NCBI GenBank assembly: GCA_944323285.1
Contig: CALURV010000006.1
Location: 1-60,877 of the forward strand
Length of the DNA stretch: 60,877 nt
From: Candidatus Gastranaerophilales bacterium
GTDB lineage: Bacteria > Cyanobacteriota > Vampirovibrionia > Gastranaerophilales > Gastranaerophilaceae
Direction of reading: 5' to 3'
Position numbers and translations under genes: made by a program. How positions within the stretch are numbered: the first letter of the stretch is position 1; every line of letters begins with the position of its first letter. A model generated the notes under the pieces. It worked only from the letters and a program-made list of their open reading frames with translations. It was not told the origin of the DNA and did not search any database. Of the stretch, positions 14,105 through 30,713 are shown in pieces.

Positions 14105-14563
14105 TTAAATTGTTTCAATAAATTTTTCAAGCTTTTTAATTCTATTCATCCATCCTTTAAAAAAAACTTTTTGTGACGGATTATTTTCAATTATTTTTAA
14201 ATAAAAATTTTTTCTTGCTTCTAAAAATTTTGCGGGGTATTTATATTCAGCTAATTTTAGAAATTCTTGAACTCTTTTGACTCCATGATTAACAGCTGAG
14301 TCAAAACATAATACAGCAAATTTATTTGTCATATTATGACAGTTTGCTTCAAGCCAATAATATTGATAATAAATAGCTTCTACTTCTTCATTTGTTATAT
14401 TTTTAACATCTTTATAAGGCAGACAATAAATATTAAGCCACTTATTATATGTCTTTTGAGTTATGCCTTTATTTGTTGCACCGCCTTTATCCAAGGGATG
14501 CTATACATACCCGCCTTCCATACTCAATACAAATTTTAGTGCTTTTTTAAATAATTCTTCCAT
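14105..14563 (-). pseudogene. Phage lysozyme, glycosyl hydrolase family 108, interrupted by an amber codon
   Basis: The full frame runs from the ATG at 14563, with ribosome binding site AAGGA, to 14105 (152 sense codons). Codons 1-20 end in SMEGGYV, which contains the catalytic Glu of the GH108 family (E16). The codon at 14501-14503 is TAG, and the frame then continues directly with HPLDKGGATNKGIT and the rest of the fold, including the C-terminal peptidoglycan-binding-like part. Family members usually have Asn, Asp or Lys where the stop lies. An internal TTG at 14494 could start a 129-residue product, but that would lack the catalytic Glu. Either the lysozyme is dead, or it needs amber suppression. 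It is the last gene of the block, after the holin-like gene. Confidence 0.85.
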
Positions 14564-14568
14564 TATAT

Positions 14569-14838
14569 TTAATTCCTTGAATTATGCTGATTATTTACAA
14601 TGCTAATTAGTAATGTTTTAACTTCTGATACATCCTGATGTATTTGAGTAACTTGCTCTTGTAATGATTTATGATTTTCCCTATATGTTTTATCTGCAAC
14701 ATAGTGTTCAGCTATATATTGTACAAATAAAGCTTTTTCTTTTTGAAAATCTGCAGGAGTCATAAAAATTTTGTATTGAATACAAAAAACGATAAACATT
14801 ATTATATATGGGGCAAGATTAAAAAATATATTATCCAT
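14569..14838 (-). CDS. Holin-like or lysis-accessory membrane protein
   Basis: An 89-residue protein with one hydrophobic segment near the N-terminus (FNLAPYIIMFIVFCIQYKIFM) followed by a helical, charged, coiled-coil tail. The size, topology and position directly before the lysozyme suggest a holin or spanin-like lysis protein; the sequence itself is not diagnostic. I chose the ATG at 14838 because AGG lies at good distance; an ATG at 14853 overlaps the end of the preceding gene. Confidence 0.6.
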   Translation of the reverse strand: MDNIFFNLAPYIIMFIVFCIQYKIFMTPADFQKEKALFVQYIAEHYVADKTYRENHKSLQEQVTQIHQDVSEVKTLLISIVNNQHNSRN

Positions 14839-14840
14839 TT

Positions 14841-15326
14841 TTAAACCTGCCATTGCTTAAAGTTAATAGTAGCTTGAAACACTTGCACCGCCCAAGACAT
14901 TATATTAGCTTTAATAGTATTTGTACCTTGTTTCTTCAAAATATGCCTAAATATCAAAGATGTTAATCTTCTGTATTCTTTTACTGATATTGAGTTTTCA
15001 AGTACTTCATCCAACATATATTTTTTAAATTCAAGTAAATAATCATGTATCATTGAAGCTATTAGATATTCGTTATCTGTCCTTGAACCGATAGAACGCC
15101 AAAAAAAACGTGGAATATCAGCCCCATTCCACGTATATCCGTTAAATATATTAAATTTGAATTTTCTTTTATCAGTTAAAATATTTACATTTAAAGAATT
15201 ATGGAGTTCAAATGGAAAGGTCTTTTTTGCTTCTTTAATTGCTTTTGGGTCATCATCTCTTATAACTCGGACCCTTACATCTGGAGTTTCTAAAAATTCT
15301 ATATCTACAATTTGCTCTCTACTCAT
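14841..15326 (-). CDS. DUF1353 family phage protein
   Basis: The 161 residues carry the DUF1353 signature: a conserved NGYTWNGADIPRFFW segment followed by a helix with ASMIHDYLLE. Members occur near lysis and tail genes of many phages; their function is not established. The remaining C-terminal part (about 110-161) is helical and may touch the membrane or the virion. It lies 34 bp after the signal-peptide protein and overlaps the alternative start of the holin-like gene. Confidence 0.8.
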   Translation of the reverse strand: MSREQIVDIEFLETPDVRVRVIRDDDPKAIKEAKKTFPFELHNSLNVNILTDKRKFKFNIFNGYTWNGADIPRFFWRSIGSRTDNEYLIASMIHDYLLEFKKYMLDEVLENSISVKEYRRLTSLIFRHILKKQGTNTIKANIMSWAVQVFQATINFKQWQV

Positions 15327-15359
15327 ATCTCCAACCTCAATAAAATTAATATTTCTCTG

Positions 15360-15608
15360 CTATTCTTTGTCTGATAAGGAAGTATCACAATAAAACTTAT
15401 AAGTATTTCTATTTATATTGATGTTAAAAGCACTATGGTCATTTGTGATTTTTTGTTTTTTGATTTTGCCCTCTGGTGTAACTTGCGAGTCAAGATTAAT
15501 TGTTGCAAAACCTTTTGAACTTTTAATTTCTTGAGTAACTTCTTGTTCTTCTGCTAATACTGGCAGAGCAAATAAACTTAAAATGATAATCGCTATTAAT
15601 TTTTTCAT
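15360..15608 (-). CDS. Small exported protein in the phage block
   Basis: From the ATG at 15608 (ribosome binding site GAGGAG, 8 bp upstream) the product has 82 residues and begins with a clear Sec signal peptide (KKLIAIIILSLFALPVLA, cleavage after AEE likely). The mature part of about 63 residues has no motif I recognise. A longer frame from 15683 would hide the signal sequence and lacks a ribosome binding site, so I reject it. Exported proteins in phage late regions often alter the host envelope or block superinfection; that is inference. Confidence 0.7.
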   Translation of the reverse strand: MKKLIAIIILSLFALPVLAEEQEVTQEIKSSKGFATINLDSQVTPEGKIKKQKITNDHSAFNININRNTYKFYCDTSLSDKE

Positions 15609-15612
15609 ATTT

Positions 15613-16218
15613 TTACTCCTCTGTTTGTAATTGTGATACAGGCATAAAATCATTAGAAAGTTGCAAAAAGCATTCCTGAACAAATTGAGCTGTTACGTTT
15701 TTTACTGTCTGTAAACTTTCAAGATATTCTGTTGTTAGTTCTTGCGTAAAATCAGGTAAACTGTATGTAATTATAGGAACTGTTTGACCTGTTTGTATTC
15801 CCATAGAAATAACAGGCAATAAGTCTGATAAAAAGTCTTTTGTTTCGCCTGTTGACATACTAACTTTACGGCGGATATAACCCAATGACGTTAAGAAAAA
15901 CTCTTTGTCAAATTGAGTTTCTTTTAATTTTATTTGTTCTTGGTTATATTCTTCCGTATTGTCTATAACCTCACCATCTACAAGCTTCTCATATGGTTGT
16001 AGAGCATAATATGTCGGGATATTTTCTTCTTTTTGTTCAATTATTTCTTCCTGAATTATCTCTTGAGTTTCTTCATCAATGATTGCAGGTTGCAAAACTG
16101 TTTCTATTGTAACTAAATTATCAACTGTTTCTATTTTTAAACCTTGTCTATGGTTATATTCAACAATAAAATCGTTTTTTTCAATCTCTGTGTATGGATA
16201 CTCTAATTTATATGACAT
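15613..16218 (-). CDS. Tail-fibre-linked protein of unknown function
   Basis: A 201-residue acidic protein placed 11 bp after the tail fibre. The N-terminal half is rich in Glu, Ile and Thr (a run of IIxEE motifs near residues 60-75). The C-terminal half contains a helical segment (FFLTSLGYIRRKVSMSTGETKDFLSDLLP). The position suggests a fibre chaperone or a minor fibre component. It does not resemble the well-known Tfa family. Confidence 0.6.
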   Translation of the reverse strand: MSYKLEYPYTEIEKNDFIVEYNHRQGLKIETVDNLVTIETVLQPAIIDEETQEIIQEEIIEQKEENIPTYYALQPYEKLVDGEVIDNTEEYNQEQIKLKETQFDKEFFLTSLGYIRRKVSMSTGETKDFLSDLLPVISMGIQTGQTVPIITYSLPDFTQELTTEYLESLQTVKNVTAQFVQECFLQLSNDFMPVSQLQTEE

Positions 16219-16229
16219 TATTAATTCTC

Positions 16230-19200
16230 CTAACTTATGTAACCTTCAGTTTTCCACATAACACCTGTAACTATTCCTGTATAAGCGCTATCAGCCCAAC
16301 GTTGACCTGCAAGTTGAAAAGAACTCATTGCTTTACTATATATCCAAGCCGTTGCTGTATAAGAACCTTCATAAACAGCACAAGCAGAAACATTATAATT
16401 ATTATCTTTATATGATTTAAGTAATGAAATTCCATAAGACATATTTTGATTTACCGGACTCAAATATCCCCATTGCTCGCAATAACCATCAGACCATACT
16501 CTATAACCGCTTGTTCCGTTTAAATAATTTTCAATAACAACAGCAGGATTTTGTGAAGAAGCTGTACTTGTTGAAGCAGGGATATTCCCTTGCCAAATTT
16601 GAGAATTATCAACTAAAATATTACACCCTGTTAAACCTACTGTTCCGAGCCAAGGTTGAGAATTATTATTGTAATCCTTACCTATATATATAATAGAATC
16701 GCTATTAATAACAGTAGCAAGCGAGATAGTGACATCTTGCGTATATGAACTTCCGTTAAGAGAATAGCTAAGTATATATTGAGTTCCAGTATATTGAACC
16801 TTTATATAATAAGTTGTGTTAGTTAATATAGTATAAGTTCCGCTATAAGTACTACCTGTATTAATTCTTAACGTGAATTTACTGTTAACAACACCCATTT
16901 CGATTGACTCACTTGAAGTTGCACATATAGTCTGATTACTTGTTACATTGTCAACTGTCGTAACCTTAAAATTCATTTCCCAAGTATTACTTTCGGGTGC
17001 AAAATTTGTATTTATTTGTGCATAATTAGAAGTAGAAAAACCTCTTAAAACATTATTGTTATTTGTAAGACTTCCGATTATACTAACTCCGTAGTCTTTT
17101 TCTACATCTATTGGAGCAGTCGTACATATAACATTAGATAAACCGTTTGTAAGGTTTGTTAAATCAACATTTGCTTTTTGAGTAATCATCCCGTATACTT
17201 CACCCATAGGCAGGGTAAAGTTTTGATTCTGTTCATCAATAGTATAGTAAAGAGCTTCACCGTTTTGTGAGTATAAATCTTGAACTCTATCTCTATAAGC
17301 TACATCTACTATCTTTGAACCCGTTTTAGATAATGTATAAGGGATTTTTAAACAAGGTTGATATACTAGGTTGCCGTCTACATATATTTTAAACGAGTTG
17401 AGGTCGATTGAACCTTTAAACGGAAAAAGTGCATTTGAAACATATTTCCCTATAGATATAAAGGAATATGGTAATAAATTATCTGTATAATTAGCTATTA
17501 TATAATTTTCCCAAACATTATTATCAACTGATAAACTTAATATATATCCAGTGCTAGATGAATATACAATTTTAAAATAATAATTAGTATTTATATTTAT
17601 ACTTTTTTCACTTACAACAAAAGCTCCCCAATTTCCAGTATCATTTATACCAAAAGTTATTTTTCCCGTAGTGCTTTCAATTCTAAACAACAATACGCCT
17701 TTATTAACGCTATATATTGATAGTGGAACTTGTTGCACATCAAGACTATTAATATTAAAAGTACCGCATATTTCCCAGTTGTCATAATTACTTAAGGCAG
17801 ACATTGGTATTTGCACATAATTACTTGTACTAAACCCACTAGCAACACCATCCTGTGTAATTGTAGGGTTTCCAACAACTTTGTAGTTATCTTTTTTTAT
17901 TACGTCTAAGCCTGTTATATTCCCATTAAATACTGGTATGCCGTCGACCCACATTGCAAAAGATTTGAGGTCGATTGAACCGTAAAATGGGTTACTTTTA
18001 GATGAAGCTAATATTCCAATGTATACAGGTTGTGTATTAATATTTTTAATATAATTATTACTTTCAACACTTTTAGTTGATATAAGAGTATTATCTGAAT
18101 TAAATAAGCTTAACGTATATTTTGTTCCATCAAAAGAATATTCAAATTTATACAAAATATTTTGTTGTATGGTTGTAAGAACAATATTTAAAGCATTTCC
18201 ATTTATATCTTGCGACCAAGATGTAAATACTCCTTGATTAACAAAAACATTGGGATACCAACCATTAGAAATAGATATAATAGTAGATTGTTTCGTAACA
18301 TCAGAACAAATAAAACTGCCCTTGATTATAAAATTATTTTCTCCAATTACAATTCCGGTATTTATATAATTAGTCGTAGTAAAGTTGCTCACAAATCCAT
18401 CATCAGTAATCGTAGGTGAGCCAACAACCGTAAACTTACTCAAATCAAAAGTAGAATGTGCATAGTTTAATATGTCAGAATATACAATAGAATTTGTACT
18501 AACATCCCCTGTTGCAAGTGCTTTTGATTGATTAAGATTGTCATAAGCTGTTGAGGTTATGTTGGACAAATCAGTGTCTGCTCTATTATTCGCAATTTCC
18601 AAAACATCTCTCACTTCATCTAGTGAACTTAATGTTTCTTCTGAATATTCTTTTGCTTTTTCTACTTCTTGTTCACAAGCACTAACCGCATCTACTTTTG
18701 CATTATTTATATCTGCTAATGCATCTGTTAAATCACTTTGTATATCATCTATAGAAGAAGAATGTAGGTTTTCTATCTCTGCAGTAGCTTCAGCATATAT
18801 ATTCTCTATTTCAGTAAGTTTCTGTCCTGCTATATTTGCATTGTCTTGTGCATTATCCGAAAAAATCTCAGCATCATTTCTTGCTTGTATAAGGTTTTCT
18901 ATTAATTCATCAGGTGAAACAGCCGAACCCTCATATGTTTTTACAGCTCTATCTACCTTTCTATTTATCATTTGAATTAATCTTACAATATAATCAAACG
19001 TCCATTCTAATACTTTTAAATTTAAGTATGAAGAATTTTCAAACTCACTTTCTTGTTTTATCTCAAGGTTTAAAGCTAAAGAAATAACTTCATTTTGTTT
19101 TAAAATATTATAAGAAGATTGTTCCAATGGAAAAGTAATATAGCTACCAAATTCATTTCCTATCTCATTAATAGAATAATCAACACCTTCTTTTAATTTT

Positions 19201-19334
19201 TTTATTTCTCCTTTTTCATTAATATAAGTAACGAGTAATTCTTCAGAAGATTCAATTAAAAAATCAAAATCAAAAATAGTAGTACTACCATTGCCTGCAT
19301 AATTATTTACAGGTATTATTGATGATACTGTCAT
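16230..19334 (-). CDS. Tail fibre with T7-type N-terminus and three LamG-like repeats
   Basis: At 1034 residues this is the largest gene in the block. The N-terminus (NNYAGNGSTTIFDFDFLIES, then a beta-rich region to about 150) matches the virion-attachment domain of T7-type fibres. A coiled coil follows (about 150-290). Three repeated beta-sandwich units of about 175 residues then occur, each opening with a G.PTIT..G...FST.NY-like line and closing with PF.GSIDL..F...VDG; they resemble LamG/concanavalin-type carbohydrate-binding domains. The C-terminal 110 residues (YRVWSDGYCEQWGYLS onward) look like a gp53-type tip domain. The gene stops with TAG, followed two codons later by TAA. Confidence 0.88.
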   Translation of the reverse strand: MTVSSIIPVNNYAGNGSTTIFDFDFLIESSEELLVTYINEKGEIKKLKEGVDYSINEIGNEFGSYITFPLEQSSYNILKQNEVISLALNLEIKQESEFENSSYLNLKVLEWTFDYIVRLIQMINRKVDRAVKTYEGSAVSPDELIENLIQARNDAEIFSDNAQDNANIAGQKLTEIENIYAEATAEIENLHSSSIDDIQSDLTDALADINNAKVDAVSACEQEVEKAKEYSEETLSSLDEVRDVLEIANNRADTDLSNITSTAYDNLNQSKALATGDVSTNSIVYSDILNYAHSTFDLSKFTVVGSPTITDDGFVSNFTTTNYINTGIVIGENNFIIKGSFICSDVTKQSTIISISNGWYPNVFVNQGVFTSWSQDINGNALNIVLTTIQQNILYKFEYSFDGTKYTLSLFNSDNTLISTKSVESNNYIKNINTQPVYIGILASSKSNPFYGSIDLKSFAMWVDGIPVFNGNITGLDVIKKDNYKVVGNPTITQDGVASGFSTSNYVQIPMSALSNYDNWEICGTFNINSLDVQQVPLSIYSVNKGVLLFRIESTTGKITFGINDTGNWGAFVVSEKSININTNYYFKIVYSSSTGYILSLSVDNNVWENYIIANYTDNLLPYSFISIGKYVSNALFPFKGSIDLNSFKIYVDGNLVYQPCLKIPYTLSKTGSKIVDVAYRDRVQDLYSQNGEALYYTIDEQNQNFTLPMGEVYGMITQKANVDLTNLTNGLSNVICTTAPIDVEKDYGVSIIGSLTNNNNVLRGFSTSNYAQINTNFAPESNTWEMNFKVTTVDNVTSNQTICATSSESIEMGVVNSKFTLRINTGSTYSGTYTILTNTTYYIKVQYTGTQYILSYSLNGSSYTQDVTISLATVINSDSIIYIGKDYNNNSQPWLGTVGLTGCNILVDNSQIWQGNIPASTSTASSQNPAVVIENYLNGTSGYRVWSDGYCEQWGYLSPVNQNMSYGISLLKSYKDNNYNVSACAVYEGSYTATAWIYSKAMSSFQLAGQRWADSAYTGIVTGVMWKTEGYIS

Positions 19335-19336
19335 CC

Positions 19337-20740
19337 TTATTTATCCCCTTCTTTTTTTAAATTTCTAAATCTTTGCGTTATTGTTTCAATTATTTTATTT
19401 TTTTTCTCTATATCTGCATCTTTCGAGTTTAATATTTTATATTCATTCAAAGATTCCTGAAATAACAAAATAAATTCATATATCTGATCTGCTTTTTTTA
19501 TATTGTTAAGTTCTAATTCACTAAGTAAAAACTTATAATCAGATATTATTTTTATTTGTTTTTCATAAGACGTTTCTTTTTGAAGTTTATGAAAAAAATC
19601 ATAATCTTTTTCAGAAAGCAAGTATCTATATTCAGCCAACTGCATTGATATAAATGATTCAAAATCATTTATCATTTTTTTTAAAATTTGGGTATATTTT
19701 TCTTTATCCGTTTTAATAAAACCATTTTTAACAAATTGGTTAATATACTTCTTCTGAGCCTCTATTACATTTCTATCTTGAGTTAAATCTATATATAACA
19801 ATGCCTTATCCGGTTCTTTATTTGCCAAAGAAATAATATTTTCCCAATTTTTTTCTACTAATTCTTTTTTCGATTTATCATTCTCTTCTTCTTCTGTCTT
19901 TTTCAAAACTTCTATATAACTTTTCACTAATTTTTCAAGATTTTCATCTTTTAATTCATTAATTTCTTGATTAATTTTTTCATCATTCCAGTTATAAGAA
20001 AAAATTTCCTTAGCCCAATTATAAGCAATGATATTATCTTTAGTCTCAATAATAGATTTTTCTAATTCTTGTTTTTTTTCATCATCAAGAATATTTTTAT
20101 ATTTTTCATAATATTGAAAAAATCTAATATCTTTATCATCAAGAAAAGATTTTATTATAGAATAATAAAATTCAGATAAATATTTCTCTTTTTTACTCTT
20201 TAATATTTTATTATTCCATTTTTCCCTATCTGACATTAACTTTATAATAGATAGACCTTGTTTCAAAAATTTTTCAATTAGTTGTGTATCTTCTTTATAA
20301 AGCAAAGCTTTTTGCATAGATAAATTTATTGCATTATTATATACAGAAATTTCCCAGTCATATAATTCTTGCGATTCATACTTAATCATCTTATTTTGAA
20401 TATTTTCAATTTTAATCTGTTTTATTTTTTGAACAGCTTCTTTTGATTCATCAAAATAAAAGGACATAACAGAAATTTTTGAATTTATAAATTTTTCCAG
20501 TTCTTTTATAAATTCATCAGATTTATCTTTAACTTCTTTTCCTTTTAAAGAAAAAAAACCACCATCAGAAAATAGAAGTTCTTTTTCCCATTCATCTATT
20601 AAATTACATAATTCTAAAATTTTAACTTTGTCCAGATATTTTGAATTTTCTACATCTAAAACATTTTCATTTTGAGAAATAGGAATTTTTCTCAAAGAAA
20701 AAGACGAAGTTAAAACATTATTATTTGCAGTTTCAACCAT
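19337..20740 (-). CDS. Large coiled-coil virion-type protein
   Basis: A 467-residue Lys/Glu-rich, helical protein with no enzyme motif. It lies where podoviruses encode their larger internal (ejection) proteins, between the gp14-like gene and the fibre, so I infer an internal or ejected virion protein. It has no lytic transglycosylase domain such as T7 gp16 carries. The ATG at 20740 is preferred over an upstream one at 20770 because GAGAGG precedes it at the right distance. Its start is 2 bp from the preceding stop. Confidence 0.65.
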   Translation of the reverse strand: MVETANNNVLTSSFSLRKIPISQNENVLDVENSKYLDKVKILELCNLIDEWEKELLFSDGGFFSLKGKEVKDKSDEFIKELEKFINSKISVMSFYFDESKEAVQKIKQIKIENIQNKMIKYESQELYDWEISVYNNAINLSMQKALLYKEDTQLIEKFLKQGLSIIKLMSDREKWNNKILKSKKEKYLSEFYYSIIKSFLDDKDIRFFQYYEKYKNILDDEKKQELEKSIIETKDNIIAYNWAKEIFSYNWNDEKINQEINELKDENLEKLVKSYIEVLKKTEEEENDKSKKELVEKNWENIISLANKEPDKALLYIDLTQDRNVIEAQKKYINQFVKNGFIKTDKEKYTQILKKMINDFESFISMQLAEYRYLLSEKDYDFFHKLQKETSYEKQIKIISDYKFLLSELELNNIKKADQIYEFILLFQESLNEYKILNSKDADIEKKNKIIETITQRFRNLKKEGDK

Positions 20741-20741
20741 A

Positions 20742-21248
20742 CTAACCTCTCTTGTTATTGTAATATTCAAAAACAGAATTACCTGTCATACCCAATATTC
20801 CAAAACTTTTTATTATACTATTTTGTTTTGCTTTATAAGATTGCAATGCCGCATTAGAATAATATCTTTGAGAAGCATCTAAATAAGATTGTGCTCTTCT
20901 TTCAGAAGAATCAATGATTTTTAAAGCATCTATTTCTCCTAAAGTTTTTTCATCTTCTAAAAGATCTAAAGCGGTTAATGAAGATATTGATATATTTCCG
21001 GACGCCAAATTAGTTTTTTGATTTCCCATATTTTTTATCGCTTGTAATCTTTTCTCTCTTGCATCTTCAATACCTTCTTGACGTTCATAAACAGCATTTC
21101 TTTCAGCAATTTTTGCTTGGTTTATACTCTGTTGCGCATTGTAATTTGCGACTTTATTTTCAACTGTTGTTACATGAACAGTTTGAATAAGTCTAACTGT
21201 ATCAACAGCAATCTTGGCGATTTCTGTAACCGGATCAACAACACACAT
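20742..21248 (-). CDS. Internal virion protein, gp14-like
   Basis: The 168 residues show the layout of podovirus gp14-type ejection proteins: a short hydrophobic start, a long Ala/Gln/Asn/Glu-rich helix (about 30-70), and a conserved small-residue patch near LASGNISISS before another helix. In T7 such proteins form part of the channel through the cell envelope at DNA entry. Position between the gp13-like and coiled-coil genes agrees. It terminates with TAG. Confidence 0.7.
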   Translation of the reverse strand: MCVVDPVTEIAKIAVDTVRLIQTVHVTTVENKVANYNAQQSINQAKIAERNAVYERQEGIEDAREKRLQAIKNMGNQKTNLASGNISISSLTALDLLEDEKTLGEIDALKIIDSSERRAQSYLDASQRYYSNAALQSYKAKQNSIIKSFGILGMTGNSVFEYYNNKRG

Positions 21249-21261
21249 TAACTTATCCTTT

Positions 21262-21732: not shown

Positions 21733-23788
21733 TTATATCCGCCAAAGTTACATCTAAAGAAATTGAACTTATAGTTATTGGGAAAGGATAAATTTGTTTA
21801 ATATGCAGAGTTGCATTTTCTGTATAATCAGCAAAAGAAAAAATATTAACATTACCTGAATGAAGATAATCCGAATCATTTATACTGGTAATACTTCTTT
21901 GATTTTGCAAAATTTCACCATTTGAACTTACAACAAAAAAATCTTCTCTGGTTTTTTCCACTTGAACATTTATTGAATTTATAATTTTTAATAAACCGTG
22001 AGTATTTTCACCTTCAAGATTAAGTGTTTCAAGCTCAAACTCATAAGGGAAGCCTGCAACTATTTTTGATGCCGGATAATCTAAACTAACACTTCCGTTT
22101 TCTACCACCTTATCTGTTATAACATTATTATCAGCAAGAAGTGTTATATTTTCACCTTCTAAATGAGAAAGCCCTGAAATTTTTTGTATAGGTTCCCCAA
22201 CATATTTAAGAGCCGAATCAAGAAAAATACCATCCTGAGTTTTTTCAACAATCCTTGTAGCCATACGTTCAATAAATCTTTTAGTTTTTCCGTTTATTTC
22301 ACGTCTTACAACAAAATAAACAACATCTTCATAATTTTCTCTTACAACAGCAACAGATTCAAATTTACCTTTAGTTTCATGCCTGTGCCAGCCGGCAACT
22401 TCTTGTTTTTTATTATAAGTAAGGGCATTAACTGTACCATCAGACATAACGCACCATAATATACGATATGGTTCTTTAGAATAAGCCATATCAATAACCT
22501 GCTTGCCCTCAAATAAGTGATTAGCGAAAATAGTTAGTTCTTCACCGTCATAGCTGTCAGAAATATATGTATATCCTAAATCTCTAATAACAGAGCCGCC
22601 CGATTGAACAAATAATATCATATTTCCGGATACAACAGGCGGAACGTGAGAGCAACCATAGAAACTTTGAGGAGAAGCAACAAGAGAAGAAGAAGCCGCG
22701 AATGCTCCATCTGACCCATTTAATTTCCATTCCGCTCCTGATGTTAAAAGAATTAAATCATTTAAAGCGATAATATGTCTTATTTCATTAACTTCTCTTT
22801 CAGATAATGTAAGATTTATTGAATCGGAATTAGAAAGCGGTCTTGATATGTTAAAATTATTATTTGTAGCGGTTTGCGAAGCAACAAGCTGCTGCGGATT
22901 ATCTTTCAGACAGGCATATACCTTTCTTTGCTGAAAATAATTAATACAAGCAGGATTATTATCGTTTTCGAACGGATTTTTATAAACAGGCGCTGTTGAA
23001 GTTAAATCAGGTTCAATTTTATTATCTGTAAAAGAATTAGTAGAAGTAGTTCCAACATAAGCGAAAATACCATTAACGCTTCTATAGATATTGTACTCTG
23101 CTGCACCTTCAACGGCATCAAAATTAATAGTAATATATTCCGTAGTCCCCCAAGAAGCTTCAAGTTCGCCAACAACACTAACTTCTTCCGAACGAATACT
23201 CTCTTCATAAGTTTCTTCTTTTACAGCAGTAATAACATATTTATAAGTAGTTGGGTTTTGATTTCCGCCAGTCCAAACAGCAGTTATGTTTTCAGGAGGA
23301 AGAATCTGCGGTTTAAAATCAATGGAATTCAAAGACCAATCATAGTGAGAATTTCTTGAAAGTTCTTTAGGAACATAATCATTATGGCACAATGTTAAGA
23401 CATCAGCATTTTGTGCAAATTTTAAATTAAATAAATCTCCTTCGTCATAAGGAGTATCTATTTCAACAGGATTATATTGATTATCATAGCCTTCAGGATA
23501 TATAATTTGTCCTGCATCTTTTATAAATCTTGCATATTTATTACCAAGTTCTATTATATAAGTTTGTTCTGTATTAAAAGCAAAAGGAATAATTCTGACT
23601 TTAGAATTTGAATTTTTAACTTCACAAACAAGTTCAAGTCCGGCTCTGTTAGAGACACAGCCTTCTGCTTTTACAAAACCATTCTTTAAAGTTTTCAGAC
23701 CGACTGAATATTTTGTCAAATCATTTCTGGCATATAAAGAAGGACTTAATTCACCGCCGGTAAAAGATTTTTGTGTATAACGAACCAT
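21725..23788 (-). CDS. Tail tubular protein B (gp12-like nozzle protein)
   Basis: The 687 residues start with TQKSFTGGELSPSLYARNDL and continue with NRAGLELV, the hallmark opening of podovirus tail nozzle proteins. A fibronectin-like segment lies near residues 165-270 (PPENITAVWTGGNQNPTTYKY). The protein forms the tube end that opens for DNA ejection. The length is in the expected range. It follows tail tubular protein A by 11 bp. Confidence 0.9.
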   Translation of the reverse strand: MVRYTQKSFTGGELSPSLYARNDLTKYSVGLKTLKNGFVKAEGCVSNRAGLELVCEVKNSNSKVRIIPFAFNTEQTYIIELGNKYARFIKDAGQIIYPEGYDNQYNPVEIDTPYDEGDLFNLKFAQNADVLTLCHNDYVPKELSRNSHYDWSLNSIDFKPQILPPENITAVWTGGNQNPTTYKYVITAVKEETYEESIRSEEVSVVGELEASWGTTEYITINFDAVEGAAEYNIYRSVNGIFAYVGTTSTNSFTDNKIEPDLTSTAPVYKNPFENDNNPACINYFQQRKVYACLKDNPQQLVASQTATNNNFNISRPLSNSDSINLTLSEREVNEIRHIIALNDLILLTSGAEWKLNGSDGAFAASSSLVASPQSFYGCSHVPPVVSGNMILFVQSGGSVIRDLGYTYISDSYDGEELTIFANHLFEGKQVIDMAYSKEPYRILWCVMSDGTVNALTYNKKQEVAGWHRHETKGKFESVAVVRENYEDVVYFVVRREINGKTKRFIERMATRIVEKTQDGIFLDSALKYVGEPIQKISGLSHLEGENITLLADNNVITDKVVENGSVSLDYPASKIVAGFPYEFELETLNLEGENTHGLLKIINSINVQVEKTREDFFVVSSNGEILQNQRSITSINDSDYLHSGNVNIFSFADYTENATLHIKQIYPFPITISSISLDVTLADIND

Positions 23789-23799
23789 TATTCACCTCT

Positions 23800-24390
23800 T
23801 TATCTCATATCTGTCCAGGAACAATAATTATTAGTTTCCATATATCCTTCTGAAGCATTTACATTTTTTGCTTTTGCAAGCATATTTGTATAAACAGACA
23901 AACAATCACTTTGAATACTTCTGTTGCCTGTAATGGCAGGTGCCGCTAAAAAAGCCAAATACCAACACAATGCTATAGCAAATTCCGTAGAAAAAAATGT
24001 TTCATTAGATACTAATTTCGTATATCTTAATATTGCAGGTGTCATATTAGTATTAATTACTTTCTGTCCTGTTGAATTGGCTGAAATTTCAAATTCTACT
24101 ATTTCCTTATCTGTATATGGAATTATTTCTCTTGCAAATACACAATCATTAGGATAGTCGTATTCGTACAAAAATTTAGGATTCAATGGAATATTACCAG
24201 TTAAAGATAATTCCCTGTATGAATTAGCAAAATTCCAATCAAAATCTTTTAAAACTTGTTCTTTTGCACTTTCGTAATATTCATTAAGAATAATAGTATT
24301 TTTGTCTGTTTGATTAACATTTTGTATATTTATACTTACTCTTAAGTTTTTAAGAGCAATATTAAAAAGTTTAGCTTTAGTATAATTCAT
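23800..24390 (-). CDS. Tail tubular protein A (gp11-like adaptor)
   Basis: The 196-residue product forms the ring between portal and tail nozzle. Typical features are an N-terminal helix with KAKLFNIALKNL, the segment EYYESAKEQVLKDFDWNFA, and the later LYEYDYPNDCVFAREI. I take the ATG at 24390, preceded by GGGAG at good spacing; a longer frame up to 24456 would run into the intergenic gap. A 93-bp gap with a hairpin separates it from the cement gene upstream. Confidence 0.88.
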   Translation of the reverse strand: MNYTKAKLFNIALKNLRVSINIQNVNQTDKNTIILNEYYESAKEQVLKDFDWNFANSYRELSLTGNIPLNPKFLYEYDYPNDCVFAREIIPYTDKEIVEFEISANSTGQKVINTNMTPAILRYTKLVSNETFFSTEFAIALCWYLAFLAAPAITGNRSIQSDCLSVYTNMLAKAKNVNASEGYMETNNYCSWTDMR

Positions 24391-24483
24391 CTCAACTCCC
24401 ATAAAAATTAAGAAAAAGATATCCGGCAGAAAACGAAAGGAGATGCCGGATATCAAAATAATACATGAGGACTATTTTTTTAA

Positions 24484-24882
24484 CTAAGCATTATGAAAAC
24501 TTTCTTGTGCAGAATCAACTATACCTGCGAATACAGCTCCAGATGTAGGTGCAGTACCTGTAACAGTATAATATAACCTCATATAACCCAAATTCCCTTT
24601 TGGTAAAAATTTAATATTTGAAATATTACCCAGCTTCAATTCAGACAATAACATTGTTTGTTCTATTAAATTTTCTGAATCAGAAAAATCTTCATCTTCA
24701 GATGTTTGAACAGCAATATTCAAACTTGTTAAATTATTAAAATCTTCTGTAATTTGAATAAATAATTCAACAGGAGTTCCAAAAGAAATTTCTCTTTTTC
24801 CAAAATTAATTACGTTTGTTGATGCACAACTTTTAGTTATAGTTTGATTATCTGAAAATAAATTTTGTTCATCTAATATCAT
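24484..24882 (-). CDS. Capsid cement protein, Bbp16-like
   Basis: The 132-residue protein begins MILDEQNLFSDNQTITKS followed by NVINFG, a pattern I know from the capsid cement proteins of Bordetella phage BPP-1-type podoviruses. A beta-rich body with LNIAVQTSEDEDFSD and LYYTVTGTAPTSGAVFAGIV fits. It lies directly downstream of the major capsid gene, as in that family. The start is the ATG at 24882, with GGAG upstream. Confidence 0.8.
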   Translation of the reverse strand: MILDEQNLFSDNQTITKSCASTNVINFGKREISFGTPVELFIQITEDFNNLTSLNIAVQTSEDEDFSDSENLIEQTMLLSELKLGNISNIKFLPKGNLGYMRLYYTVTGTAPTSGAVFAGIVDSAQESFHNA

Positions 24883-24902
24883 TTTATACTCCAATCTAAT
24901 AT

Positions 24903-25898
24903 TTAAGATACTTTTTCTTCTTCACAAGTAATTTGTTCACATTCACGAATAGGAATGTTTTTGTAGTGAAGAATATTATCATTTAAGTATTCTTTAATAG
25001 TGAAATTAACATTTGTTTTAGCTTTTAATTGGGCTTCAAAATACATCAAAACAGTAGAATTACAATAAATAAATGTCTTACCTGTTTTAGCAAATCTTCT
25101 TATTTTGTAATAAGCTTTATTTAATAATTCTTCTAAATCAGGTGCACTGCTACCAGCAAGTTTAGAGATGGAAATATTTGCAATACGACAGGTTGAACGC
25201 CAATCTCTCAAAGATAAACCAACATCCATTTTAAAATGATCCTGATATACCTTTCTTTTACCACCTGTAGCACTTGTCTCCGTCATAATACCGTCATCTT
25301 TATGCTGAATACCGGCTTGAGAACCTTGCGGATATAATAAAGAAGCATGTAAATCTCCCCAAGTAACAAACCAAACAGAAGTATTATCAGTACCTGATCC
25401 GCCTGCATCTATTATATTAGAACCTATTTTTTTCAAATCAGTTGATTTTTTTGAATATCTTGCAGCAAGTCCATCAAAAGCTGCTGCATTTTCTTTTATG
25501 CTTCCATAGAAAATTGTTTCTTGAAGTTTCTGATTCATTGCTTCTATAAAAGCAGATGACTCTGATAATCTAAATAACTTTGGATTTTCAGCTTTGTCTA
25601 CTAAATCTACATCAACAATAGAATAAGTTTCCAACATACCTGTTACATCTTTTACTTGTTCTGTTGTAGATTTTGAAGAAGGAACATATCCATATAATTT
25701 TCTAAAAACAGCAGAAGGCAATCCTGTTCTTATAGTTGTAATATGATTAGAACCGTCATTACATTGAAGAGCATTAGCATCTTGTAATACTTCATTTGTT
25801 TCTGACATCATTTCTATGATTTCAGCAGCAATTTTACCATTTTCTGTTCTTTTAAACCTGTCTGCTAAAGTTAAATAACTTGAACCTAATGTCGCCAT
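24903..25898 (-). CDS. Major capsid protein (HK97 fold, BPP-1/Bbp17-type)
   Basis: A 331-residue protein whose N-terminus (LGSSYLTLADRFKRTENGK), central RTGLPSAVFRKLYGYVP and later SVWFVTWGDLHASLLYPQGSQAGIQ with DHFKMDVGLSLRDWR are typical of major capsid proteins of this podovirus group. It forms the icosahedral shell. Gene order (scaffold before, cement after) supports the call. No N-terminal delta domain is obvious, consistent with the separate scaffold gene. Confidence 0.9.
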   Translation of the reverse strand: MATLGSSYLTLADRFKRTENGKIAAEIIEMMSETNEVLQDANALQCNDGSNHITTIRTGLPSAVFRKLYGYVPSSKSTTEQVKDVTGMLETYSIVDVDLVDKAENPKLFRLSESSAFIEAMNQKLQETIFYGSIKENAAAFDGLAARYSKKSTDLKKIGSNIIDAGGSGTDNTSVWFVTWGDLHASLLYPQGSQAGIQHKDDGIMTETSATGGKRKVYQDHFKMDVGLSLRDWRSTCRIANISISKLAGSSAPDLEELLNKAYYKIRRFAKTGKTFIYCNSTVLMYFEAQLKAKTNVNFTIKEYLNDNILHYKNIPIRECEQITCEEEKVS

Positions 25899-25921
25899 TT
25901 AATCAATCCTTTCATTTTTTA

Positions 25922-26515
25922 CTACATTGTAGGGAATAAAATATCTTCCCTGTTTTCTTTAATTACTGCAGGAGAATCAATCCCATAAACCGAATCATTT
26001 TTCATTCTTTTTCCAATGTTATAAAACATCTTTACAACTTGAGGATGACAGTTTAAACCTGATTCTGAAAACAATCTTTGAACCTCATCATCAGCAAATT
26101 CAGAATATGCAATATTTGCAGTACTAATAGCATTAATAAGTTTAGAACCGCCAATTTCATTATCTATATTAAGTAAGTGCTTATAGTTTTCTATTTTTTG
26201 TCTGTTTTGATCAGCTATAGTTTTAGAGTAATTATCACCCGTTAACTTTGTCAGCTTCACAGCTAAAGACATTAATTCATTGGCACTTTTTTGAGACAAA
26301 TTATATTTCGAAGCAAGTTCATTAAACTCATTTAATAATTCTTCGTTATAACAATAATTTTCAGGTAGTTCAACAAGAGAATAATCATATTTTTCCGGTT
26401 TACCAAAATACCCTTCATCATCTTGAGGAGTAATATTTTCTTTTACCTCATAAATATTTTCTCCTAATCCCATTGAATTAACCTCATTTTCATTAAAATT
26501 TTCTTCTAAATCCAT
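25922..26515 (-). CDS. Capsid scaffolding protein
   Basis: The 197 residues are acidic and helical, with the family pattern YDYSLVELPENYCYNEELLN, then FNELASKYNLSQKSANELM. Such proteins guide shell assembly and are removed later. The position immediately before the capsid gene is diagnostic. The ribosome binding site (GGAGGAAA) is the strongest in the block, suiting a protein made in high amounts. The stop is TAG immediately followed by TAA. Confidence 0.82.
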   Translation of the reverse strand: MDLEENFNENEVNSMGLGENIYEVKENITPQDDEGYFGKPEKYDYSLVELPENYCYNEELLNEFNELASKYNLSQKSANELMSLAVKLTKLTGDNYSKTIADQNRQKIENYKHLLNIDNEIGGSKLINAISTANIAYSEFADDEVQRLFSESGLNCHPQVVKMFYNIGKRMKNDSVYGIDSPAVIKENREDILFPTM

Positions 26516-26528
26516 TTTTCCTCCGTTT

Positions 26529-28181
26529 CTAAATTAACCCTAATTTTGCCAATAACTCACTACCAAAAGAATCAGTTCCTGCAATATTTTTAATTATTTC
26601 AGAACCTGTTTTCATTTGATTAACAGCTTTTTCCTGACTTTCTTGTTCTTCAAGTTTCTGTTTTATTTTTTCAACCTCATAATCAGGTACAATTTGTTCA
26701 GGTGAAATATTTACATAATCCGCATAATCATCAACAATTTTTGAAGCATTTAATTTCATTTTTAAAGATGGATCCAGTGTTTGAGCAAGATTAACAGTAA
26801 AAGTAGTAAATCTTTCCATTGCAGATATTTTCACCGCTTTTTGTGCCTGAGCAAGAGTAGAAACAAACTCTATTTCCATATTGGAACCCATAATTTCAAC
26901 AGGAGGTTCCGGTAAAATATTAAGCCTGACACATTCAGTAAAAACCCAATCCATAACTTGATTTAATCCATTATGAATTTGTTGAAGCAATGGTGATAAT
27001 AAAACCATCTTTTCTTCTTTTAATTCGTTAACTTCCGTTGCGGTACGAGAACGCTCTGCAGTATTTAAAATCATTGCGAATAAGTCGTTATAAAAAATTT
27101 CCTTTATTGATTCTTTCAATTTTTCGATAATAGAATCCACTTCTAATACTCTTGGATTAACTTCATAGATAGGAGATAAACCTCTTCCATTTTCATCTTC
27201 TTCAATAAAAGCAGCAGGCGCATCTATCATTTTTTTATTTTTAAGACTAGCAGGTCCTTTATAAGTAGGGCTAATCATTTTCTTAACAGCTTTACCTTCA
27301 TCAATAACCATACTCATCAATTGCTTTACATCAGGAAGCGCATTCACGCCAGGGCATTCTGAAGGATATATATCTTCTCCGTTAACTTCTGCTTCAAAAA
27401 CAGCATAAGGGAATTTATCAAATCCGCCCTTTGAAAGAAACTTTTCTTCATTGGAATCATTCTCATAATATACAGAAATAAATTCTTTATTTTTTGCCCA
27501 AACAGAATCTGGCTTATATTCTTTATTCGGTTCAACAAAATGTACAACTTCAAACAATTCCTCATACCTGTTTGAATGTATAGCATTGAGTACTTCCTTA
27601 GAAACATTTTCCTCGCCGAATTGATTATACAAATTACCTGCTGTTTCCATATAAACACGGCAAATTGTATCCACTTCACCTTTTTGATTTTTAGCAATTC
27701 TATATGACCCTATAGGTAAAAGTCTGCATCTAAGCACGGTTTCCTCATCACTAAGCATTGCAAAAACAGAAATACCAAAAACTCCTATTTGTTTATATAC
27801 AGAAGGTAATATTCTATATAAATTAGAAGAATTAAATATATCTCTAAATATATTTTCAACTTGATTGCACCAAGTTTTTACTTCATAACTTTGCTCTTTA
27901 CCGTAATTTCTAATTTTTACTTTAAACCAATTTGTAGCAGGACTTGTTGCACCTGACATCATACCTGATGAAAAATTACGAACAGCAATTAAAGGTGTAG
28001 AATCTTTAATCTTTTTGTTTTTTGCCGGCTGTTTATTAACATTTCTTGTAAGAAATCTTACCGAACGAGGAAGAAAATAATCAGCAAGATCCTGCCAGTC
28101 TGGTTTAAATACATTATAAGCTATATCAAGTTCTGCTCTTCTTGAAGTAAAATATTTTTTAGAATATTTATTTTCTTTCAT
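26529..28181 (-). CDS. Portal (head-tail connector) protein
   Basis: The 550-residue portal ring is the channel for DNA packaging and ejection. Podovirus portal features are visible: RAELDIAYNVFKPDWQDLAD near the start, FSSGMMSGATSPATNWF around residue 75, and a C-terminal helical crown with ERSRTATEVNELKEEKMVLL. It belongs to the head-tail connecting protein family of T7 and BPP-1. It is intact and 13 bp upstream of the scaffold gene. Confidence 0.92.
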   Translation of the reverse strand: MKENKYSKKYFTSRRAELDIAYNVFKPDWQDLADYFLPRSVRFLTRNVNKQPAKNKKIKDSTPLIAVRNFSSGMMSGATSPATNWFKVKIRNYGKEQSYEVKTWCNQVENIFRDIFNSSNLYRILPSVYKQIGVFGISVFAMLSDEETVLRCRLLPIGSYRIAKNQKGEVDTICRVYMETAGNLYNQFGEENVSKEVLNAIHSNRYEELFEVVHFVEPNKEYKPDSVWAKNKEFISVYYENDSNEEKFLSKGGFDKFPYAVFEAEVNGEDIYPSECPGVNALPDVKQLMSMVIDEGKAVKKMISPTYKGPASLKNKKMIDAPAAFIEEDENGRGLSPIYEVNPRVLEVDSIIEKLKESIKEIFYNDLFAMILNTAERSRTATEVNELKEEKMVLLSPLLQQIHNGLNQVMDWVFTECVRLNILPEPPVEIMGSNMEIEFVSTLAQAQKAVKISAMERFTTFTVNLAQTLDPSLKMKLNASKIVDDYADYVNISPEQIVPDYEVEKIKQKLEEQESQEKAVNQMKTGSEIIKNIAGTDSFGSELLAKLGLI

Positions 28182-28182
28182 T

Positions 28183-28386
28183 TTATTCCCCTAAAAGTTT
28201 TTTCTTAGATGAAAGAACTTCATCATCTATCCCATTATTCGTTGTTCTGATATTTTCAGAGATAATACCTCTTACTCCATTTCTATTTGAAGCAGAAGCT
28301 TTTTGAACCGATGCATCTGCCTGAGTAGCAGCTTTTATAACCTCTGTATCTGCCTGAACAGTAGTAATTTTAGGTGTAGAACACAT
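28183..28386 (-). CDS. Small podovirus protein preceding the portal
   Basis: A 67-residue protein beginning MCSTPKITTVQ and ending with GVRGIISENIRTT and a Leu-Gly tail. This matches the layout of the short CxTPK...RG..ST.LTG proteins that accompany portal genes in podoviruses of this type; their function is unknown. The ATG at 28386 follows AAAGGAAG. It lies 1 bp before the portal gene. Confidence 0.65.
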   Translation of the reverse strand: MCSTPKITTVQADTEVIKAATQADASVQKASASNRNGVRGIISENIRTTNNGIDDEVLSSKKKLLGE

Positions 28387-28410
28387 AAATTCTTCCTTTC
28401 TATTTTTCAA

Positions 28411-28608
28411 AAAATTTACAACAACTCGATTTTCACTACTGATTAGTGAAAAAATATGTTTAAACCAAAAAATTAAACCTAATTATTTCAGATAAACCAA
28501 TAATCTCCGCAAAAAAAATGAAAATAAATTTAATCTAGTATCGTACTTTGTTACCGAGTCATCCTCGCTGACAAAGTACTCACCTTTTAAAAAAGCCACT
28601 CGAAAAAA
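28411..28608. other. Gap inside the phage block holding a dispersed repeat
   Basis: The only gap near 200 bp inside the block. It separates the packaging genes (terL and upstream) from the structural genes. It contains the 65-bp repeat (28529-28593) and AT-rich sequence; I see no gene. Confidence 0.6.
28529..28593. repeat. Dispersed 65-bp intergenic repeat, copy 2
   Basis: Partner of 9111-9175 with five substitutions. Four of the five lie in the loop or outside the stem; one changes the stem, shortening the inverted repeat to ACTTTGT / ACAAAGT. It lies 16 bp after the terL stop codon on the same strand. Its presence inside the phage block shows the repeat is not confined to ancestral host DNA. 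Confidence 0.85.
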
Positions 28609-29919
28609 TTAAGAATAAGGATCAAAATTTGACTCTAATATAACAATTTCTTCTTTTTCATCAATAAGATATGAAAAATAATTAATAGCAAAAATACCCA
28701 TCATAAGACTATCCGCAAAATCAGGACTTTCACCTTGCTCAGCTTTCATTTCTTTTTTTGATTGAATAAAAATCTGGCCATTAGGTTTATAAGATTTTTT
28801 TATATATTCAAGCTGAGAAATAGTTAAATCAGAAGAAATTTTAAGCCATTCATTATCAATATAATCTTTAAGCGTTAAATAGCCATCAGCACGCCTGTTA
28901 AGAGCATTGGGCCGGTTACTTGTCGCAGCACCGTTAAATTTTATTGTATTACTTATAACATTTCTAATACTTACATATATAGAATAGCCTAACCCATCAG
29001 CATCAAGAATTAATAAATCAGGTTTCCACATTGAATAATAATTTATAATTCTGCCTTTAGTTATATCTGTATCAGGCTCAGACCAATATTCCTGTTTTTC
29101 CAAAGCCCAATGAACGCTGCTTTTTGATTCAATAAGACTGGCAACACACAAATCCCCACCATTACCTGCCAAATCGACAGACATACATCGAATTTTTCGA
29201 TAAGGTTCATCTTTTATTTTTATATTTTTTGCTTTATCTAATTTTATAGAAGAAAATAAAAAATCATTACTGCAATCAAGAGGATTTCCCTCCCATATAT
29301 ATTCATAATCCAGAATATTGCGTTCTTTGCATCTGTTCGCTTCTAATATAAGTTTTTCAGGACAATATTTATTATCATAATAATTTATCTTAATATGCAG
29401 ACAATCATCTCTGGATACAAACTCAGAATAAACAGGGTCGTTACGGACAAATCTATTCATAGTAAAAATGACTATGGAATTTTTCTTTCTTATAGTAGGG
29501 ATAATAACATCAAGAGTAGATTTTGTTATTGCCTGGGCTTCATCAATCCAAAGGATATCAATGCCCTCCAGCCCTTTAATATTAATCCTTCCCTGTTCTC
29601 TAAATCCCTTAAATATAATACTTGACTCAGAAAAATTATGAATTATTTTATTAGCTTTAACCGTAAAATTTAAATTATAATCGTCAATTAAGTCATTAAA
29701 TATTTTATGAACACTATCAGCAATAGTAGCTTGCGTCTCACGTCCGCAGCAGACCCTGACTTTTCTTTGTTCTGCAATCCAGAGAATTAACCTAGCAATA
29801 CTTTGAGATTTGCCACCACCCCTTCCGCCTTCTATTAAAAAATAATTATAATTATTAATATTAACTATTACAGGTATAAGTTTTTCAGGTATATCAAGTA
29901 TCTGAGGTAATTCAATCAT
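28609..29919 (-). CDS. Terminase large subunit
   Basis: This ATPase-nuclease packages DNA into the prohead. The ATPase half has Walker A GGRGGGKSQS (about residues 31-40) and Walker B with DILWIDEAQ (about 124-130). The nuclease half has acidic clusters in CMSVDLAGNGGDLCVASL and DLLILDADGLGYSIY, the expected RNase H-like metal site. The length of 436 residues is normal. All key residues appear present, so packaging capacity may be retained. It overlaps the preceding small gene by 8 bp. Confidence 0.93.
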   Translation of the reverse strand: MIELPQILDIPEKLIPVIVNINNYNYFLIEGGRGGGKSQSIARLILWIAEQRKVRVCCGRETQATIADSVHKIFNDLIDDYNLNFTVKANKIIHNFSESSIIFKGFREQGRINIKGLEGIDILWIDEAQAITKSTLDVIIPTIRKKNSIVIFTMNRFVRNDPVYSEFVSRDDCLHIKINYYDNKYCPEKLILEANRCKERNILDYEYIWEGNPLDCSNDFLFSSIKLDKAKNIKIKDEPYRKIRCMSVDLAGNGGDLCVASLIESKSSVHWALEKQEYWSEPDTDITKGRIINYYSMWKPDLLILDADGLGYSIYVSIRNVISNTIKFNGAATSNRPNALNRRADGYLTLKDYIDNEWLKISSDLTISQLEYIKKSYKPNGQIFIQSKKEMKAEQGESPDFADSLMMGIFAINYFSYLIDEKEEIVILESNFDPYS

Positions 29920-30214
29920 TTTGCCTTTCCGTAATTATTTCATCTCCTGCAAGTATTTCTAATTCTTTCCCGTTAATTTTTACACTTCCCATAATGTTTA
30001 TATTTAAATTTGGCTTATCTTTATCACTATATAAACCGCATAATTTCCCTTTAAGTTCTTCTGCTTTTAGAAAAAGTGAAATATCAGGGTTAACTTCATC
30101 ATCTTTTCCTTTTCTGTTTAAAGCCATTTGTTGAACAACCTCAAGATTTTCAAAAGATTTTGTTTTAGAATATTCAAATTTAGAATCATCACTATTCTTT
30201 TTTTTTCTTCCCAT
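29912..30214 (-). CDS. Candidate terminase small subunit
   Basis: A 100-residue basic-then-acidic protein directly upstream of and overlapping terL by 8 bp, the usual place of the small terminase. It starts MGRKKKNSDDSKF and ends with a beta-like segment (NINIMGSVKINGKELEILAG). No helix-turn-helix is obvious, so the call rests on position and size. The ATG at 30214 is preferred; a TTG at 30232 overlaps the previous stop. Confidence 0.5.
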   Translation of the reverse strand: MGRKKKNSDDSKFEYSKTKSFENLEVVQQMALNRKGKDDEVNPDISLFLKAEELKGKLCGLYSDKDKPNLNINIMGSVKINGKELEILAGDEIITERQND

Positions 30215-30228
30215 TAAACTCAACCCAA

Positions 30229-30633
30229 TCAATCAATAACTTTAACTAACCTCTTTTCGCCATTAAAATTTACAGCATATTGATATATAGTTCCATCTTT
30301 ATGTAACCGATTTTCCCCATATACAAATCCTGAATTTGCTTTTGTACCATAATGTACTTTTAACTCAAACCAGCTGCCATCCTTAATTTTATTTAAGAAA
30401 TCAACAGTTTTTTTTCTTTTTGGTCTGTAAGTTTCATATTTTTCAGTCTTAATATTGAACTGTGTAAGCACAGCTACTAATTTACCACATTTCGGACATA
30501 ATAAAATTTCAAGCTTTCTGTCTTTATATTGAAAATCAGAAGCTAACATTATTGTCCGAAAAGGGTCATAATACCCTCCGCAACAATATATCATATAGCT
30601 ACAACACTCCCCCGACTTAACGAATCCAGTCAC
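30229..30633 (-). CDS. Zinc-ribbon-like protein, first gene of the phage block
   Basis: A 134-residue product (GTG start at 30633) or 121 residues from the ATG at 30594, which has GGGGGAG about 12 bp upstream. It contains a CPKCGK knuckle and an N-terminal CC pair that may complete a metal site. A basic patch (RPKRKKTVDFLNKIKDG) follows. The first position in a late operon and the possible zinc ribbon suggest a regulator or DNA-binding protein, but I do not recognise the family. Confidence 0.6.
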   Translation of the reverse strand: MTGFVKSGECCSYMIYCCGGYYDPFRTIMLASDFQYKDRKLEILLCPKCGKLVAVLTQFNIKTEKYETYRPKRKKTVDFLNKIKDGSWFELKVHYGTKANSGFVYGENRLHKDGTIYQYAVNFNGEKRLVKVID

Positions 30634-30676
30634 CTTTTCGACAAATGTCTACTCTAGTCTTAATTCAAATCTTATT

Positions 30677-30682: not shown

Positions 30683-30713
30683 ATAACACTTTTTTAATCC
30701 GAAAGATATAACT

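Follow-up and report, generated by a model that had tools for sequence, protein, structure and literature searches.

A probable domesticated podovirus particle of the gene transfer agent type at a fixed chromosomal site in a genus of Gastranaerophilales

Background

The gene transfer agents (GTAs) RcGTA and BaGTA are made of siphovirus-like proteins and are found in Alphaproteobacteria. The definition of such agents includes Caudoviricete-derived particle proteins, full endogenisation, mostly vertical inheritance with host co-diversification, packaging of mostly random host DNA, a head too small for the element's whole genome, and delivery of DNA to other cells (PMC9662315), and a small terminase subunit (TerS) without a detectable DNA-binding domain is a trait common to known GTAs (PMC11841831). 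In 2026, FpGTA of Faecalibacterium was described as the first podovirus-like GTA-like element, and its TerS was likewise reported to have no obvious DNA-binding domain (PMC12946183). Here we describe a block of podovirus-type particle genes in a stretch of 60,877 nucleotides (contig CALURV010000006.1 of assembly GCA_944323285.1; the whole stretch is hereafter called the window) from a Candidatus Gastranaerophilales bacterium of the phylum Cyanobacteriota, one of the cyanobacterial relatives that live in the gut and do not photosynthesise. The window is one contig of a genome of about 1.86 Mb (G000; 36 contigs, 97% complete), whose named relatives are Candidatus Gastranaerophilales, including Candidatus Avigastranaerophilus faecigallinarum.

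A first-pass annotation, made from the letters of the window, had proposed the block as a GTA-like candidate. In the present study, we examined its gene content, its distribution among related genomes, and the selection acting on it. We consider it probable that the block is a domesticated and vertically inherited podovirus particle, that is, a viriform of the GTA type, because it has a full set of particle genes, no virus genes, a fixed site in 41 of the 41 genomes of the genus, purifying selection, a promoter-like upstream region, and a TerS that has lost a domain.

Results

The block is 16.5 kb long (positions 14105-30633), has every gene on the minus strand, and is flanked by lysC (12774-14030, plus strand) on one side and rlmH (30784-31254, minus strand) on the other. 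Genes were assigned by profile searches (Pfam, phrog) and from the translations of open reading frames (ORFs), which confirmed a complete, nearly intact podovirus module for packaging, head, short tail, and lysis, similar to that of epsilon15 and phiV10. The first-pass annotation had listed the same functions, together with a fibre, as nearly all intact, and had seen no integrase, repressor, or replication gene; the profile matches across the block bear out the former, and none of the three latter turned up there. The whole 60.9-kb contig gave no match to a tyrosine integrase (PF00589, E ≤ 1e-8), and the genome holds a single large terminase subunit (TerL). The block does not carry the gene set of a temperate prophage (integrase, repressor, replication), and its particle proteins are Caudoviricete-derived, as in the definition of GTAs given above (PMC9662315). 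Its boundaries are also those first proposed, as a perfect bidirectional terminator (14051-14082, both strands; 14-bp stem, T tail on either strand) occupies the junction with lysC, and rlmH closes the other end. A chance arrangement is excluded because the identical gene order recurs across the genus.

A portal search over 98 related genomes found the gene in 40 of the 41 genomes of the window's genus (79-99% identity, no internal stops) and, outside it, in no more than four further genera of the family. The lone portal-negative genome, G028, still has the half of the block that lies downstream, with internal proteins, fibre, and DUF1353 protein, directly beside lysC on a contig that ends there; therefore, the block is present in 41 of 41 genomes. 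Gene order is constant over the regions taken from 46 portal matches, and wherever a contig extends far enough, lysC and rlmH occupy the two opposite flanks, so that the synteny first noted in the window holds throughout, except for one unresolved case, the left flank of G016. Nine loci, including that of the window, cover both ends of the block on a single contig. No early genes adjoin the block in the loci of the relatives, and no integrase was found near it in the searched genomes of the genus. The first-pass annotation had named adjacent early genes in relatives and a patchy distribution as observations that would speak against a GTA; neither was seen, and the presence in all 41 genomes at a fixed site, with no early genes or nearby integrase, corresponds to full endogenisation (PMC9662315). 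Thirty-eight of the 40 portal-positive genomes have a single portal; the other two hold extra divergent copies that are prophage-like (two in G034, one in G026). A comparison with the empty site in other genera was attempted and abandoned, as lysC and the FAD gene were on separate contigs or far apart and gave no clean empty site. Four IMG/VR contigs fall inside the clade of the window's genus at 84-85% portal identity, and only block genes are visible on them; IMG/VR lists as viral contigs fragments that match these chromosomal blocks (L157-L160, L180, L216).

A capsid search of 288 genomes of the family, followed by a search of the genus, revealed a second genus, g51, with exactly one copy of the block in 28 of 28 genomes. 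The order in g51 is rearranged, with the homologue of a 477-amino acid (aa) internal protein (g477) and a reverse-strand gene, c17, placed after the portal. None of the g51 block loci contains early genes, and no integrase was found near the block in the searched g51 genomes. Most of the sampled species keep the downstream neighbour cluster, which in at least one member of one subclade is found on the opposite flank. The portal tree separates the window's genus from g51: each makes up a strongly supported clade of its own, and the true prophages and virome contigs around one differ from those around the other; from this placement, domestication most likely happened twice. True prophages of the family, such as L112, L118, L119, L140, L144, and L148, carry early genes ahead of the packaging genes, among them XRE or S24-type repressors and the YqaJ recombinase, and two prophages have an integrase about 14-15 kb away. 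Both genera are without c13 and c14, small genes that 14 and 11 of 15 prophage loci, respectively, possess, and the scaffolds and g477 proteins of both genera are shorter than those of the prophages.

TerS of the window is a 106-aa protein at 29912-30232 with a likely start at 30214 (29912-30214, minus strand). It has homologues among prophage TerS proteins and is without their N-terminal helix-turn-helix (HTH) DNA-binding domain. The prophage homologues are 155-177 aa long and match PF03592 (Pfam Terminase_2) and phrog_51. A hidden Markov model of the N-terminal domain matched 44 of 44 phage-type proteins, none of 25 from the window's genus, and none of 34 from g51; the result with Pfam Terminase_2 agrees with this loss, and no displaced copy of the domain was found in the six frames of the loci. 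The C-terminal half is kept in both genera. A structural model of a prophage TerS (mean pLDDT 75), which served only for fold identification, resembles the SPP1-like and SF6 TerS in PDB, and its N-terminal part matches the SF6 DNA-binding domain (TM 0.89 on target). With a mean pLDDT of 68, the AlphaFold model of the window's TerS was too uncertain to serve as proof. The block has in this respect the trait shared by known GTAs, a signature that goes beyond the first-pass annotation and lends support to the GTA-like candidate. We take the loss of the HTH domain as a proxy only for packaging of mostly random host DNA.

Close pairs gave pairwise dN/dS values of 0.019 (portal), 0.026 (capsid), 0.042 (scaffold), 0.044 (TerL), and 0.053 (tail nozzle), as compared with 0.024 and 0.025 for the controls lysC and the FAD gene. 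Portal, capsid, and TerL are under purifying selection at the housekeeping level. Faster evolution is seen in g477 and in the internal virion proteins (0.15-0.23). The comparison of dN/dS that had been suggested at the outset gave no indication of relaxation; with core values of 0.02-0.05, the block does not have the relaxed selection and frameshifts of a decaying prophage. A tree from seven block genes has 10 of 28 splits in common with the rpoB tree, and permuted labels gave a mean of 0.2 and a maximum of 3 (1000 permutations); this sharing corresponds to mostly vertical inheritance with host co-diversification (PMC9662315). The genus g13 (G052) is the sister of the window's genus in the rpoB tree. 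Its block is found at another locus, interleaved with other genes, but has the same promoter-like element (see below). These observations fit a gain of the block before the two genera split and its relocation afterwards; the portal tree by itself, however, places G052 within the window's genus.

Ahead of the block, a promoter-like region (30646-30735, minus strand; alignment of 18 genomes) is conserved throughout the genus, and G052 has it too at its other locus. It contains a AAAGATATATCTTT-type dyad and TGTGTTATTATAAT, which we regard as a candidate activator site. A sigma-70 scan was no better than shuffles, so the promoter assignment derives only from the conservation across species. The g51 loci (L308-L320) have a highly conserved 5' leader upstream of g134, the first gene of the block (GATTTTCGGACAATTCAAATTTGTATCATCC..GGATAGAGAAACGAGGCTGACGAAAA), which may be a regulatory RNA or an operator. 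An Rfam search of the window and two g51 loci gave tRNAs only and no known riboswitch for the conserved leaders.

About one-third of the blocks of the window's genus have variable genes in the gap between TerL and portal or in that between g134 and TerS; we call these cargo genes. The larger cargo proteins contain domains of the GH24 lysozyme, GH108, or M23 peptidase type, or else a C-terminal domain that Pfam does not recognise, and directly after some of their genes lie genes for small or multi-membrane proteins whose arrangement, with tandem and orphan copies (c34 arrays), resembles that of immunity genes. Most of the larger proteins carry an internal short motif, RAxxLYPxM or xxADLFYPTM, that corresponds to the extreme C-terminus of the scaffold, which is REDIL[FY]P[TSN]M in 38 of 38 scaffolds of the genus. 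Cargo with such motifs, in some cases with immunity-like neighbours, was observed in L080, L083, L088, L090, L091, L094, L100, L105, L106, and L155. The scaffold of g51 ends in PA[QE]xLYG (22 of 22), and its few cargo candidates (L134, L314) have the motif in an LYG-like form. A strict motif pattern occurred in 5 of 656 non-scaffold ORFs of the window's genus, all of them cargo, as compared with 0.02 in shuffles, a test that overstates the significance because the pattern was picked after the sequences had been viewed; the exact match to the scaffold tail and its genus-specific form provide independent support for a putative cargo tag. The scaffold of phage 80alpha attaches to the capsid by its C-terminus, a segment that is mimicked by a satellite protein (PMC5644958). 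By this analogy, a capsid-targeting role for the cargo motif is plausible, and the motifs suggest that cargo effectors are loaded into the capsid through copies of the scaffold tail.

The only motif match in the window is its own scaffold, and its cargo slot between TerL and portal (28411-28608), where relatives have up to about 9.5 kb of variable genes, is empty of genes. An inverted repeat (GTACTTTGT...ACAAAGTAC) is found at 28532-28580, inside this slot. The cargo slot of G016 (L090, 6564-9630) contains RiPP-like short Cys-rich peptides (c67) beside TupA-like ATP-grasp genes. Near TerL in the g51 genome G100 (L314, 5952-14511) are a MuF-domain protein fused to a transporter remnant and an ORF resembling a papain-fold glutamine deamidase toxin. 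A 72-84-aa prophage protein, c19 (L140, L144-L146, L172, L190), has a C-terminal tail like that of the scaffold (SAAEILYG) and is possibly a second capsid-bound assembly factor.

The remaining genes of the block are described from its first gene onward; all are on the minus strand. The 134-aa protein g134 (30229-30633) is conserved in both genera and in the prophages. It is followed by TerS and by TerL (28609-29919; Terminase_3, PF04466, E 1e-25), in which the Walker A motif GGRGGGKS is intact. A 75-aa protein (28183-28410; phrog_831), conserved in both genera, precedes the portal, or head-tail connector (26529-28181; PF12236, E 2e-118), the scaffold/protease (25922-26515; phrog_458, E 1e-30; C-terminal end ..NREDILFPTM), the major capsid protein of the GP7 family (24903-25898; PF20911, E 3.6e-114), and a Bbp16-like head protein (24484-24894; PF21190, E 5e-13). 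The tail genes are those for an adaptor protein (23800-24456; phrog_394, E 5e-33) and the nozzle (21725-23788; phrog_376, E 9e-189). Two internal virion proteins (21262-21732, phrog_308, E 7e-21; 20742-21248, phrog_418, E 2.9e-11) are followed by the ejection-type internal protein g477 (19337-20770), assigned by phrog/profile match and prophage homologues. At 477 aa, it is shorter than most prophage homologues (about 706 aa), one of which was checked and has a C-terminal M23 peptidase domain.

The tail fibre (16230-19334; phrog_1640 over residues 1-121) has a conserved N-terminus and a variable C-terminal part, and about 15-25% of its length is kept in most relatives. Its translation, read by eye, shows a domain of the GxPTITxDGxxSxFSTSNY.. 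type repeated three times in tandem. Downstream of the fibre, a 201-aa protein (15613-16218), which is kept in part of the genus and has c16 relatives in both genera, is likely fibre-associated. Next are a 107-aa protein with no assigned function (15360-15683), the ORF of which is kept in some loci of the genus, a DUF1353 protein (14841-15326; PF07087, E 4e-11; phrog_1158), and a small membrane protein in a holin-like position beside the endolysin (14569-14853; weak phrog_473 match). The GH108 endolysin (14105-14563; PF05838, E 1.5e-20) is the sole broken gene of the block. Direct reading of the sequence located a single in-frame stop at 14501-14503, the one stop codon noted earlier, which leaves an open frame at 14105-14494; the ORF is intact in the sister species G035.

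Discussion

If the block is a GTA-type particle, its operon would be expressed upon a host-controlled signal, and scaffold and capsid would form procapsids. The TerS/TerL motor would then start on host DNA without a pac site and fill the heads by headful packing, after which short tails and species-specific fibres would be added. Cell lysis would free the particles, and DNA would be ejected into related cells, where ComEC, which is present, may serve as the uptake route. We thus infer packaging of random host DNA, release by lysis, and delivery to kin; relatives with cargo genes probably load protein effectors too. The benefit may be gene exchange, killing, or both.

Several points weigh against this interpretation. 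It is drawn from gene content and sequence comparison. The length of the capsid protein is kept, so the particle could hold the 16.5-kb block itself. The endolysin of the window is broken, the block tree disagrees with rpoB in its deep branches, and the effector-like cargo in relatives offers killing as an alternative or added function. Alphaproteobacterial GTAs have, as a signature, a carbon cost below that of their viral homologues (PMC7360931); this signature, which is not a defining feature, is absent here and in fact reversed, since the cost was higher, not lower, in all 10 genes, a comparison confounded by AT-richness.

The main rival is that the block encodes a killer particle similar to PBSX, in which a podovirus head delivers toxic effectors, perhaps with inert random DNA, against competing kin while immunity genes shield the producers. 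This alternative, which was raised by the cargo genes of the relatives and is a correction to the first-pass annotation, is possible rather than probable. The cargo itself (GH24, GH108, M23, and unassigned C-terminal domains in about one-third of the blocks of the genus), its immunity-like neighbours, and the scaffold-tail motif in most of its larger proteins speak for such a particle. However, the window and several relatives are cargo-free although strong selection maintains their whole packaging machinery, TerS and TerL are hard to explain if DNA is irrelevant, and toxicity and immunity are read from the gene layout only. The two functions may also be combined. A podovirus tamed twice would then package non-specific DNA together with swappable effectors bearing genus-matched internal scaffold tails (LYPTM-type or PAxILYG-type), each paired with immunity genes; we offer this combination tentatively, as a proposal that falls just short of being probable.

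A split or helper-dependent phage, or a satellite, with its early genes elsewhere in the same genome is unlikely. The related prophages in some genomes of the genus (two in G034, one in G026) could act in trans, but the window genome has one TerL, 38 of 40 genomes with a portal match have a single portal, and the DNA-recognition domain of TerS is lost in every copy examined. Still less can be said for an ordinary defective (cryptic) prophage heading for loss: the stop codon in the endolysin and the missing early genes agree with it, whereas the genus-wide fixed site, intact core ORFs, dN/dS of 0.02-0.05, congruence with rpoB, and repetition in a second genus make it very improbable. That the block is an active temperate phage with the gap from lysC to rlmH as its chance integration site is barely credible, as the four IMG/VR contigs in the clade (84-85% portal identity) that might represent it show only block genes, the block is present in 41 of 41 genomes, it has no early genes, and integrase searches of the window contig, and of the surroundings of the block in those genomes of the genus that were covered, found none.

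If the GTA-type interpretation is true, this is the first such element reported in the Cyanobacteriota/Melainabacteria group. A literature search found no GTA report for this group, and as far as that search shows the element would be the first in the phylum. The expectation that a podovirus-type GTA would be new therefore stands for this lineage but not for the podovirus type, for which FpGTA is the precedent (PMC12946183). Two separate tamings of related podoviruses with the same changes (the DNA-binding domain of TerS lost, two small head-region genes lost, and the scaffold shortened) would also be a natural experiment, and the changes from phage to GTA would become testable, the controls being true prophages from the same family. 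Provided that the cargo tags work, they would offer a natural means of loading proteins into a phage capsid, and the combined particle would be a natural plug-in cargo system uniting a gene transfer agent with a toxin-delivery particle. Such blocks are at present filed as viruses in virome databases.

Comparison with known systems

The Gastranaerophilales prophages L112, L118, L140, and L144 have the same head-tail module (portal identity 51-69%) and, unlike the block, have repressors, the YqaJ recombinase, a long TerS with HTH, and mostly c13 and c14. The closest isolated phages are phiV10-like, with a portal 37% identical to that of phiV10 over 90% of its length. The Uetakevirus phages epsilon15 and phiV10 have the GP7-type capsid and the Bbp16-type and nozzle proteins in common with the block; members of this group are complete viruses of about 39 kb with early genes and an integrase. 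PBSX of Bacillus subtilis is similar as a possible DNA-filled killer particle fixed in its host lineage. PBSX is long-tailed, and it is not known to have scaffold-tagged cargo.

As in RcGTA (Rhodogtaviriformidae) and BaGTA, the particle genes appear to be inherited vertically and TerS is without HTH (PMC9662315); unlike in these agents, the proteins are of the epsilon15/phiV10-like short-tail type and there is no carbon-cost bias. FpGTA is alike in its podovirus-like operon of head and packaging genes, which every examined genome of a gut genus carries and for which no early genes are reported (PMC12946183). It differs in belonging to Bacillota and in having two loci, as compared with one here; particles with about 9 kb of DNA have been observed for FpGTA, whereas the present block is known from its sequence, and the likeness is one of gene content, distribution, and TerS type. 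The cargo resembles the MuF polymorphic toxins, in which effectors are joined to phage head proteins (PMC5576092), and CpmB of SaPI1, a foreign protein that copies the capsid-binding motif of the scaffold C-terminus (PMC5644958). Unlike in MuF and CpmB, the scaffold-tail-like motif here lies inside effector-like proteins of what is probably a domesticated particle.

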